Assembly: GCA_022822785.1 (NCBI GenBank)
Contig: JAJEAL010000048.1
Coordinates: 1-64,000 of the forward strand
Direction of reading: 5' to 3'
Source of the DNA: Candidatus Poribacteria bacterium
Lineage (GTDB): Bacteria > Poribacteria > WGA-4E > PCPOR2b
Length of the DNA stretch: 64,000 bases
This document shows positions 31,132-36,040 of the stretch, one piece after another. Numbering within the stretch: the first letter of the stretch is position 1; each line of letters begins with the position of its first letter. Below the pieces are notes generated by a model, which worked only from the letters and a program-made list of their open reading frames with translations, was not told the DNA's origin and ran no database searches. A program made the position numbers and the translations under genes.

Positions 31132-31695
31132 GTGTCAACGATTCAAAGCAGAGGCCGCCGCTATCAACAAAAAGCACCACAGCAGCAGAACAGAGTTAAT
31201 CGACAGATTCGGGCAAGACAGGTTTTGTTAATCTCCACCGAGAACGAGAAACTTGGGCCCATGCCCGTTTACGAAGCGCTGGACCGAGCACAGGCAGAAG
31301 GACTTGATTTGGTAGAAGTTTCTCCAAATTCTAATCCGCCGGTTTGCAAAATTATGGACTACGGTAAGTTCCAGTATGAGAAAAGCAAACGGGCGAAAGA
31401 AGCAAAAAAGAAACAAGCCAAAGTTGTCCTGAAAGAGATAAAGTTCAAATCTGTAAGGACCGGAGATCACGACTTTCAATTTAGGCTTCGCCACGCCCAC
31501 GATTTTTTATCGAACGGTTGGAAGGTTAAAGTGAGTGTTAGATTCAGTGGGCGTGAAATGTTGCACACAGATCTGGGGAGAGAAATGCTGCGACGGTTTG
31601 CAGCAGAGGTCGCGGATATCGGCGAGATAGAGTCGCCCCCACGGATGGAGAGTCGCTCCATGTTTATGGTCTTGGCGCCACAATTAGATAAGTAG
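31132..31695 (+). CDS. infC: Translation initiation factor IF-3; probable true start AUU at 31141
   Basis: RVNRQIRARQVLLISTENEKLGPMPVYEALDRAQAEGLDLVEVSPNSNPPVCKIMDYGKFQYE; followed by rpmI and rplT. Confidence 0.96.
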   Translation: MSTIQSRGRRYQQKAPQQQNRVNRQIRARQVLLISTENEKLGPMPVYEALDRAQAEGLDLVEVSPNSNPPVCKIMDYGKFQYEKSKRAKEAKKKQAKVVLKEIKFKSVRTGDHDFQFRLRHAHDFLSNGWKVKVSVRFSGREMLHTDLGREMLRRFAAEVADIGEIESPPRMESRSMFMVLAPQLDK

Positions 31696-31710
31696 AGGAG
31701 CATCAGTCAT

Positions 31711-31905
31711 ATGCCGAAAATTAAGACACATAAAGGTTCAGCCAAGCGTTTCAAATTCACAGGAAATGGGAAGATTCGTAGGCAGAAAGCTTATTCTAAC
31801 CACCTGTTTGCCTCAAAAACGTCGAAGCGGAAGCGAAATCTCAGAAAAAGTGCGCTTGCAGATAAATCGAACGAGAAGAGGCTGCGTCGCTTGCTTCCCA
31901 ACTAG
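31711..31905 (+). CDS. rpmI: 50S ribosomal protein L35
   Basis: [33 protein letters not shown]. Confidence 0.96.
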
Positions 31906-31938
31906 GTTGCTGTCAAAATTGCTTTTAAGGAGAGCGTA

Positions 31939-32289
31939 ATGTCAAAAGTAAAAACAGGTAGCGTTCGTCGTCGTCGCCGTCAAAGAGTGATGAAGCACTC
32001 AAAGGGTTATCGTGGTGGTCGCAATAACCTAAAACGGTCCGCGATGGAGGCTGTTGAGAAAGGTTGGAATTATGCCTATGCCCACCGCCGGGCGCGCAAA
32101 AGGGAATTCAGGCAATTGTGGATTGCCCGCATCAATGCTGCGGCCCGGATGCACGGCTTATCCTACAGCCGGTTTATGCACGGCTTAAAAAAGGCGGGAA
32201 TTGACCTCAATCGCAAGGTTCTCGCTGACCTTGCTATTCATGATGAGGAAGGATTTGCTCGTATCGCTGCACTTGCGAAAGGTTCATAA
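31939..32289 (+). CDS. rplT: 50S ribosomal protein L20
   Basis: [45 protein letters not shown]-type sequence. Confidence 0.96.
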
Positions 32290-32309
32290 AACTGAGTTTG
32301 CGTAAAGGC

Positions 32310-32580
32310 TATGAAAGGACAAAGTAAGCGGGTCGAGTATTCTAATCAGAGAGGCTGCGTCACCGGCTGAAAGCGCATCTTTAGAATGGGTCGCCGAATT
32401 TCATCCTGGAGCCGCCGAGTTGAACGCTAATTTAGGCAAGTAGGCTCGTGCCGGGAATTTCACCGTTACTGAAATAGTTAATGAAGTGGGCAGATGTAAT
32501 ATCTGCCAATAAGGGTGGTACCGCGGAAGGTTTTGACGCCTGTCACTTTCGTCCCTTGGACGGAGTGATAGGCGTTTTTT
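32310..32580 (+). promoter_or_regulatory. T-box leader for pheST, specifier UUC (Phe) at 32400-32402, T-box motif AAGGGTGGTACCGCGG at 32511-32526
   Basis: Canonical GGGTGGTACCGCGG antiterminator sequence, Stem I-like AGAGAG region, GAATTTCATCCTGGAG specifier region, then a terminator directly before pheS. Confidence 0.88.
32536..32580 (+). terminator. Rho-independent terminator of the pheS T-box leader
   Basis: CGCCTGTCACTTTCGTCC-CTTG-GACGGAGTGATAGGCG followed by TTTTTT. Confidence 0.88.
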
Positions 32581-32604
32581 ATTGCCATGTTATAGGAGAT
32601 AGAT

Positions 32605-33621
32605 ATGCAGGAAGAGTTGAAACGAATCGAGGCTGAAGGGTTGACAGAACTGAAAGCAGTGGACGATCTGCGCGAATTAGAATCCCTACGGATTAAGTAC
32701 TTCGGCCGCAGAGGTTCGCTCTCCGCGGTGATGCGAGGAATGGGGAAACTCTCTAAAGCGGAGCGACCGATTGTGGGCAAGCTCGCGAACGAAGTACGCG
32801 CCAATCTTACAGAAGCTTTTGATCAGGCAGAAGAAGCTTTGAACCAACGTGCGCGAGAACAACAGCTTGAAGCCGAGTCTGTAGATATTACCCTCCCTGG
32901 TCGCCTGCCACAGTTTGGAAAAAAGCATCCGGTGACACAAACTTTTGACCGCATCCAAGAAATTTTCCGGGGCATGGGATTCCAAGTGGCTGAAGGTCCC
33001 GAAGTTGAGCATGAATATTACAATTTTGATGCGTTAAACACGCCCGCAGAGCATCCCGCTCGAGATGCACACGATACATTTTATATCACCGATAGCTTAC
33101 TGTTGCGGACACACACTTCACCGGTTCAAATCCGCTACATGGAACAACAGCCCCCCCCTATACGGATTATCGTCCCGGGGCGCGTATATCGCTGCGATTC
33201 CGATGCCTCTCACACACCGATGTTTCATCAGGTCGAAGGTTTACTAGTTGCCGAACAGGTCACTTTTAGTGAATTGAAGGGAGTATTATACGCTTTTGTG
33301 CAGCAGATGTTCGGGGAGGGAACCCGGACTCGTTTCCGTCCACATTTCTTCCCGTTCACAGAGCCGAGTGCGGAGGTGGATATCTCCTGTACAACATGTC
33401 ACGGCGAAGGCTGTCGTCTCTGCTCAGGCACCGGTTGGCTTGAGATTTTGGGCGCAGGATCGGTGCATCCAAATGTTTTTCGTTACGTGAATTACGATCC
33501 GGAACAGGTGACGGGCTTTGCGTTTGGCATGGGGGTCGATCGGATTGCGACATTGAAATACGGTATCCCAGACCTCCGGTTGATGTTTGACAATGATATG
33601 CGATTCGCCCGACAGTTTTGA
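32605..33621 (+). CDS. pheS: Phenylalanine-tRNA ligase alpha subunit
   Basis: HPVTQTFDRIQEIFRGMGFQVAEGPEVEHEYYNFDALNTPAEHPARD; GMGVDRIATLKYGIPDLRLMFDND. Confidence 0.96.
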   Translation: MQEELKRIEAEGLTELKAVDDLRELESLRIKYFGRRGSLSAVMRGMGKLSKAERPIVGKLANEVRANLTEAFDQAEEALNQRAREQQLEAESVDITLPGRLPQFGKKHPVTQTFDRIQEIFRGMGFQVAEGPEVEHEYYNFDALNTPAEHPARDAHDTFYITDSLLLRTHTSPVQIRYMEQQPPPIRIIVPGRVYRCDSDASHTPMFHQVEGLLVAEQVTFSELKGVLYAFVQQMFGEGTRTRFRPHFFPFTEPSAEVDISCTTCHGEGCRLCSGTGWLEILGAGSVHPNVFRYVNYDPEQVTGFAFGMGVDRIATLKYGIPDLRLMFDNDMRFARQF

Positions 33622-33643: not shown

Positions 33644-36040
33644 ATGAACGTAAGTATCAAGTGGTTAAAAGAATATGTTGATTTCGATCTGTCCCCTGAA
33701 ACTCTAGCGGAACGTTTGCTGATGCTGGGCATGGAAATCGAGTCGATAAAACAGCTTGGAGAAGGTCTAGATCAGGTGATCGTTGGCAAGATCAAAGCCG
33801 TAGAAAAACACCCAAAGGCGGACAGACTAGTGCTATGCACGGTTGATGTCGGGTCGGGTACAGACGCCCAAATCGTCTGCGGTGCTCCGAATGCCCGTGA
33901 AGGGCTAGTTGCTCCCGTTGCGGTCGTCGGTGCACAATTGCCCAACGGGTTGACAATCAAACGAGCGAAAATCCGAGGCGTGGAATCTCAAGGGATGCTC
34001 TGCTCAGAGCAAGAGTTAGCGATTTCAGATGAAGCCTCCGGCTTGATGGCGCTTCCCGACGATTTGCAAATTGGCGCCCCGCTTGTTGAGGCTTTCGGTT
34101 TAGACGATGTTGTGTTAGCGCTTGAAATTACGCCCAATCGCCCGGATTGCCTCAGCATGATTGGGGTCGCTAGAGAGATTAGTGTAGCCACGGGCAATCC
34201 ACTCAGGTTGCCGGAAGTAAATCTCCAATCGGGGACAACAGATATTCATGAGCTCACTAGTGTAACGATTGACGCTGCAGATCTCTGTCCCCGCTACGCA
34301 GCGCGAATTATTCGAGGGGTCAAAATCGCGCCTTCGCCCGCTTGGTTACAGCGTCAGCTCGAAGCTGTCGGTGTCGGAACAATTAACAATATCGTCGATA
34401 TTACCAACTATGTCCTTATGGAATACGGCCATCCCTTGCACGCTTTCGATTACCACCGACTAACTGAGAACCGGATTGTTGTTCGTCGCGCCAAGCCGGA
34501 CGAGACCCTGAAAACAATCGATGAAGAAAAGCGGGAGTTGACACCCGATATGCTTATCATTGCTGATGCGGAGAATCCGGTCGCGTTGGCGGGTGTGATG
34601 GGTGGCTTCGATTCGGAGATTACCGACCGGACGGCTGACGTGCTGCTTGAAAGTGCATATTTCTATCCGCCAAGCATTCGGAAAACGTCAAAGGCGTTGG
34701 GGATGCACACCGAAGCGTCACATCGATTTGAACGCGGGGCAGATCCCGAAGGCGTGATTCCAGCCCTTAACCGTGCGACCCAACTCATTGCGGACATCGC
34801 CGGCGGAGAAGTCTGTTCAGGAATTATTGATGTTTATCCGGGCAAGCGAGAAGCTATCAATATTCAGCTTCGTCCTGAACGCGTCAACTTTATCCTGGGA
34901 ACGGACATTGTCCGTGACGACATGCGTGACATCCTAACCCGCCTCGGCTTTAGTGTGTCCGATACGTTTGAAGTTACGGTCCCCACCTTCCGCCCCGATG
35001 TGACACAGGAAATCGATTTGGTTGAAGAAATTGCGCGTGTCTACGGATTCGATAACATTCCAACTACGCTACCCAGAGGTGATATCCCTATCCCAAAACC
35101 GGACCCGAAGGAGAACCTACGCGAGGGTGTAAAAACATATCTGTTGCAATGTGGTATGATGGAAGCAATGAACTACGCATTCTATCATCCGGCCGCTTTT
35201 GACCGTATCCGTCTTGCCCCCGCAGATCCGCTCCGTCAAGCGATTCCAATCATGAATCCGTTAAGCGAAGATCAGTCGATCATGCGAACAACCTTACTTC
35301 CTAGCTTGCTTGCAAATGCCCAACGGAATCGGAACCATCAAATCAATGATGTACAATTTTTTGAGTTCAGCAAAGTTTTCCTCCGAACCGAAGGGGATGA
35401 ATACCCAAATGAACCTGAGCGTGTCGCAGGCATTATTGCCGGTCGCCTCGGCGCAGGTGTATACGGCGATCCACTGCGTCCGGGGGACTTCTTTGATATC
35501 AAAGGGATCGTCGAGGGCCTGCTCAACCGATGCGGACTTTCAGATTATACCGTCGCCCACACCGACCATCCAGCTTTCCATCCCGGACGCCGGGCGGAAA
35601 TCCGAATCGAAGATAGTACACTGTGCGTCTTCGGTGAAGCCCATCCGGAGGTGTTAGAAAACTACGACTTGCCCCATAAGGCGTATCTGTTTGAACTCGA
35701 TTTTGAAAGATTGGTCGCCGTCGTAGAACCGACGAAACAGTTTGAACCTATCCCAATTTACCCCAGCGTCAATCGGGATCTCGCCATTGTGCTAGACGTC
35801 GATACGCCCGCCAGTCGTCCGGCTGAAATTATTAAATCTGCCGGCGGTAAGCTAGTCTCTTCACTGCATATCTTCGATGTGTACACAGGTGAACAGGTCC
35901 CCGAAGGGAAGAAGAGCTTAGCATTCGCAATAGAATACCGTTCGGCAGCGGAAACGCTCACGGATGAGATTGTGGATCGGGTTCACGATGGGATTCTAGA
36001 TCGGTTGGAACAGCAGTTAGGGGCAACCCTGCGAAGTTGA
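33644..36040 (+). CDS. pheT: Phenylalanine-tRNA ligase beta subunit
   Basis: MNVSIKWLKEYVDFDLSPETLAERL; VCGAPNAREGLVAPVAVVGA; EITPNRPDCLSMIGVAREI; immediately follows pheS. Confidence 0.96.
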   Translation: MNVSIKWLKEYVDFDLSPETLAERLLMLGMEIESIKQLGEGLDQVIVGKIKAVEKHPKADRLVLCTVDVGSGTDAQIVCGAPNAREGLVAPVAVVGAQLPNGLTIKRAKIRGVESQGMLCSEQELAISDEASGLMALPDDLQIGAPLVEAFGLDDVVLALEITPNRPDCLSMIGVAREISVATGNPLRLPEVNLQSGTTDIHELTSVTIDAADLCPRYAARIIRGVKIAPSPAWLQRQLEAVGVGTINNIVDITNYVLMEYGHPLHAFDYHRLTENRIVVRRAKPDETLKTIDEEKRELTPDMLIIADAENPVALAGVMGGFDSEITDRTADVLLESAYFYPPSIRKTSKALGMHTEASHRFERGADPEGVIPALNRATQLIADIAGGEVCSGIIDVYPGKREAINIQLRPERVNFILGTDIVRDDMRDILTRLGFSVSDTFEVTVPTFRPDVTQEIDLVEEIARVYGFDNIPTTLPRGDIPIPKPDPKENLREGVKTYLLQCGMMEAMNYAFYHPAAFDRIRLAPADPLRQAIPIMNPLSEDQSIMRTTLLPSLLANAQRNRNHQINDVQFFEFSKVFLRTEGDEYPNEPERVAGIIAGRLGAGVYGDPLRPGDFFDIKGIVEGLLNRCGLSDYTVAHTDHPAFHPGRRAEIRIEDSTLCVFGEAHPEVLENYDLPHKAYLFELDFERLVAVVEPTKQFEPIPIYPSVNRDLAIVLDVDTPASRPAEIIKSAGGKLVSSLHIFDVYTGEQVPEGKKSLAFAIEYRSAAETLTDEIVDRVHDGILDRLEQQLGATLRS

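Follow-up and report, generated by a model that had tools for sequence, protein, structure and literature searches.

The DNA analyzed here is a stretch of 64,000 nt (the window) in which pheS and pheT, the genes of phenylalanyl-tRNA ligase, lie behind a ribosomal gene cluster. The locus raises the question of whether the region between rplT and pheS is a tRNA-sensing T-box riboswitch in a bacterium outside the Firmicutes, and how such an element came to be there. In Escherichia coli, pheST is governed by the pheM leader-peptide attenuator after rplT; attenuation is coupled to translation of the leader peptide, and expression rises when charged tRNA-Phe is short. For T-boxes, the survey of Wels et al. 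2008 (PMC2494555) listed Firmicutes, Actinobacteria, Chloroflexi, Deinococcus and two Proteobacteria, including leuA in Geobacter and Pelobacter, ileS and trp in Dehalococcoides, and the Ile and Gly tRNA ligases in Deinococcus. Poribacteria are absent from its table of phyla.

A T-box leader between rplT and pheS

The window was scanned against Rfam via cmscan. The T-box family RF00230 matched positions 32302-32559 (+) with 105.9 bits (E 2.2e-22), above its gathering score of 93. The match covered model positions 1-219 of 219, which indicates a full-length class I T-box leader, and no Rfam family besides RF00230 exceeded its threshold in the window. The first matched position lies 13 nt past the rplT stop codon, and Stem I begins 5 nt further on. 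The identities of infC, rplT, pheS and pheT were assigned by NCBIfam scores over the curated cut-offs, and an rpmI-like reading frame was seen by eye between infC and rplT. The features of the locus are as follows.

31132..31695 (+): infC, translation initiation factor IF-3, upstream in the same cluster (TIGR00168, 213 bits, cut-off 60)
31939..32289 (+): rplT, ribosomal protein L20, immediately upstream of the leader (TIGR01032, 149 bits, cut-off 65.65)
32302..32559 (+): T-box leader RNA (RF00230, cmscan 105.9 bits, E 2.2e-22)
32605..33621 (+): pheS, Phe-tRNA ligase alpha, putative regulated gene (TIGR00468, 338 bits, cut-off 237)
33644..36040 (+): pheT, Phe-tRNA ligase beta, putative regulated gene (TIGR00472, 854 bits, cut-off 403)

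The PheS protein is 91-92% identical to those of Candidatus Poribacteria metagenome-assembled genomes, and Firmicutes were nearly absent from the hits of the PheS search. Judged by this protein comparison, the host of the leader is a member of Candidatus Poribacteria and not a Firmicute.

Leader anatomy and tRNA match

All parts of a class I T-box can be located in the leader, as listed below.

32307..32413 (+): Stem I with K-turn base, specifier loop, AGAGA distal bulge (32348-32352) and GGCUGAAAG-type apical loop (Rfam alignment; covariation across 18 Poribacteria leaders)
32400..32402 (+): specifier UUC (Phe) in the context GAA-U-UUC-A, complementary to the GAA anticodon of tRNA-Phe
32416..32448 (+): Stem II (98.1% of cells paired; both sides changed in 4 of 6 pairs)
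32463..32468 (+): CCGUUA, Stem IIA/B region (matches the Rfam consensus; largely invariant in the alignment)
32489..32507 (+): Stem III hairpin (fold -10.9 kcal/mol; covariation)
32511..32526 (+): T-box sequence AAGGGTGGTACCGCGG (nearly invariant in 18 leaders)
32516..32519 (+): antiterminator bulge UGGU, complementary to ACCA (A73 + CCA) of tRNA-Phe
32512..32556 (+): antiterminator helices A1 (AGGG/CCCU) and A2 (CGGAA/UUUCG) (fold -14.8 kcal/mol; 97-98% of cells paired)
32535..32580 (+): intrinsic terminator, stem 32535-32576 and U-run 32575-32580 (-29.8 kcal/mol, z = -7.8; covariation)

None of 200 shuffled sequences was as stable as the terminator. The antiterminator value of -14.8 kcal/mol was obtained by folding the leader without the terminator's 3' half. 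Positions 32547-32554 are common to the 5' arm of the terminator and the 3' arm of the antiterminator; therefore, the two predicted structures are mutually exclusive. The distal motifs of Stem I, which in T-boxes contact the tRNA elbow, are present and conserved among the aligned leaders, with AGGGA in L128 as the one exception.

The genome of the window encodes a tRNA-Phe(GAA) whose gene ends in A73 and does not encode the CCA. The anticodon of this tRNA is complementary to the specifier, and its A73-CCA end is complementary to the UGGU bulge. The preliminary description, which had placed a Phe-specific T-box with a strong terminator directly before pheS in a Poribacteria-type host, is borne out by the covariance model, the predicted pair of folds, the tRNA complementarity, the verified flanking genes and the PheS identity. 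Its limits of 32310-32580 were about right, with Stem I starting at 32307.

Covariation supports the leader structure

Eighteen full-length Poribacteria leaders were aligned and compared with a structure drawn on the sequence of the window. In the drawn structure 90.9% of the cells are paired, a percentage that is favored by drawing the structure in this way, while the compensatory counts are not. Both sides have changed in 32 of the 51 pairs. The number of cells changed on both sides of a pair was 137, compared with 41 after column shuffles and 25-36 with slid partners. From the aligned sequences, the leader structure is clearly no chance product.

The covariation backs Stems I, II and III and one pair of A1. 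Helix A2 of the antiterminator hardly varies and is backed by conservation. The terminator also covaries, more weakly (14 doubly changed cells versus 4.4), and part of it is too invariant for this kind of test.

Distribution of the pheS leader in Poribacteria

RF00230 matches were found in 79 of 85 genomes of the phylum, 61 of them with matches over the cut-off. The matches were fetched and sorted by the downstream gene, which gave 65 leaders before pheS and 68 before ilvB. All 65 pheS leaders carry the specifier UUC, and rplT lies upstream of 64; the remaining one is near a contig start. The leader occupies the same locus in most families, including that of one genome outside the class (G002, L128). 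In 58 of 66 entries (one locus counted twice), a terminator more stable than -10 kcal/mol and a U-run come after the T-box; a simple script found no stable terminator in the other 8. In many genomes of the largest family, the distance from the specifier to the T-box is reduced from about 117 to 60-90 nt, and this shortening suggests that Stem II has been lost there.

Losses were traced by searching genomes with one or no match again at laxer settings and by inspecting the pheS loci of 13. In L205 and L206 the terminator alone is left between rplT and pheS, and L213 holds a similar remnant; the aptamer-less terminators of L205, L206 and perhaps L213 look like natural remnants of T-box loss. The pheS leader of L211 is degenerate, and L212 and L215 have short spacers before pheS that hold no T-box. 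Inspection of the 900 nt ahead of pheS did not reveal rplT in L207-L210, L214 or L218. At another locus, L151 (G039:C15), a UUC T-box lies behind rplT, but pheS is not the long reading frame that comes next in the sequence retrieved.

Tandem T-boxes before pheS were also considered, as a second GGNTGGAACCACG occurs about 400-560 nt upstream in many genomes. This copy is part of the rplT coding sequence, where it specifies the conserved Lys-Gly-Trp-Asn-His-Ala of L20, so the tandem arrangement was rejected.

The same leader, specifier and locus in most families indicate that the pheS leader predates the radiation of the sampled lineages. The simplest account of these sequences is that the pheST T-box was ancestral to the sampled Poribacteria and was lost several times.

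A second, Val-type T-box before ilvB

The genome of the window contains a second T-box before ilvB (G000:C8:64108-64420 (-), L002) with the specifier GUC; its score of 86.8 bits is below the gathering score. A tRNA-Val(GAC) with A73 is also encoded in this genome. All 68 ilvB leaders of the phylum have a UGGU bulge, and the specifier is GUC (Val) wherever the motif listing shows it, apart from a single AUC (Ile) in L096 (G025), possibly a change of specificity. Two deep-branching genomes (L103, L116) carry a Val-type T-box before an ilvD-like gene, identified by eye.

T-box-like leaders in Patescibacteria

Ten genomes of other phyla were searched, and one of them, from Paceibacterota (G093), gave a weak RF00230 match before aspS. 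Sub-threshold matches were then found in 55 of 197 genomes of its order; the candidate short T-boxes L219-L248 come from this order. A scan of 20 downstream proteins identified 6 ileS, 6 aspS, 3 thrS and 1 trpB. The ileS leaders have a UGGU bulge and the three thrS leaders a UGGA bulge. Of the six aspS leaders, four have UGGC, and L227 and L243 have UGGU. The bulge thus tends to follow the gene, as far as these sequences go.

By eye, Stem I of several of these leaders is a short hairpin with AUC (ileS), GAC (aspS) or ACC (thrS, L240) in its loop. L244 has AAC in the hairpin loop before an aspS-like frame, and no clear specifier was seen by eye in L226, L228 and L234. A literature search found no paper on a T-box in Patescibacteria or the candidate phyla radiation, and these short T-boxes are possibly undescribed.

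Inheritance or transfer

The ancestor of Poribacteria may have gained its T-box by ancient transfer and not by inheritance from a deeper bacterial ancestor. The patchy distribution in the published survey (PMC2494555) and the single, sub-threshold match among the ten genomes of other phyla are consistent with this, while the divergent T-box-like leaders in many Patescibacteria genomes point the other way. Since such divergent leaders occur, limited sensitivity may be part of the reason why older surveys show no T-boxes in other phyla. Ancient transfer is a serious possibility, though in our judgment somewhat on the weaker side of even. Nearly balanced, and only just short of even, is the broader proposal that T-boxes are older and more widespread than described, with ancestral Phe and Val elements in Poribacteria and with reduced, short-Stem-I forms before several Patescibacteria aminoacyl-tRNA synthetase genes that stay below the threshold of the standard model.

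The preliminary description had further suggested that the leader either extends the known distribution of T-boxes or was transferred horizontally without its genes; the first part holds with 79 of 85 Poribacteria genomes, and the second does not in its recent form. A recent acquisition from a Firmicute is highly improbable: T-boxes are most abundant in Firmicutes (PMC2494555), and none exceeded the threshold at the tested pheS loci of Planctomycetes, Cyanobacteria and Patescibacteria, but phylum-wide synteny and an invariant UUC, reaching even the genome outside the class, contradict it and place any transfer before the radiation of the sampled lineages. An element ancestral to the sampled Poribacteria thus remains our reading.

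Proposed control of pheST

On sequence and predicted structure, the leader is almost certainly a transcription-attenuating, tRNA-Phe-sensing T-box riboswitch that controls pheST. The nascent leader would fold Stem I and offer UUC to the GAA anticodon of tRNA-Phe. When the tRNA is uncharged, its free ACCA 3' end would pair with UGGU and stabilize the antiterminator (32512-32556), and pheST would be transcribed. When the tRNA is charged, the more stable terminator (32535-32576) would form, and transcription would stop before pheS.

We infer that transcription arrives from upstream. With so little space between rplT and the leader, a polymerase that reads on from the ribosomal cluster would run into it, and a leader starting 13 nt past the rplT stop probably uncouples pheST from infC-rplT read-through. 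No sigma-70-like promoter was found at 31700-32700 in a scan for the sigma-70 consensus, which may not be the consensus of this phylum. A decayed relic that no longer switches and leaves pheST constitutive, as the lost aptamers of L205, L206 and perhaps L213 and the degenerate L211 might suggest, is very unlikely here, where no T-box part is missing from the window copy and its relatives have accumulated compensatory changes.

Comparison with known systems and significance

Compared with the class I transcriptional T-boxes of Firmicute aminoacyl-tRNA synthetase leaders (RF00230), the Poribacteria leader has the same Stem I with K-turn, AGAGA bulge and specifier loop, the same Stem II, CCGUUA region, Stem III and T-box sequence, the same predicted antiterminator/terminator switch, and likewise a matching synthetase gene downstream. 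It differs in the host phylum, in its location 13 nt behind rplT inside an infC-rplT-pheST cluster, and in the specifier-to-T-box distance, often shortened in the largest Poribacteria family. The non-Firmicute T-boxes of the survey (PMC2494555) belong to the same RNA class but precede other genes with other specificities.

Poribacteria do not appear in the text of the TBDB paper (PMC7778990), and a literature search, mostly among papers open without subscription, found none describing a T-box in this phylum. The Poribacteria leaders may already be labelled by automatic genome annotation. What is new is the phylum for a well-understood mechanism, and the novelty is limited to the lack of a published description in this search.

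Poribacteria are a further candidate phylum for control by tRNA-sensing RNAs, which seems to be ancestral there both for pheST and for branched-chain amino acid synthesis. The position behind rplT, which in E. coli belongs to a leader-peptide attenuator, is taken here by a T-box; the genomic place and the purpose are the same, but the Poribacteria RNA would sense the tRNA directly. Lineages with a shortened leader, with the aptamer lost and the terminator kept, or with pheS away from rplT are natural experiments on T-box decay. The short-Stem-I leaders before ileS, aspS and thrS in Patescibacteria may outweigh the Poribacteria finding in importance.
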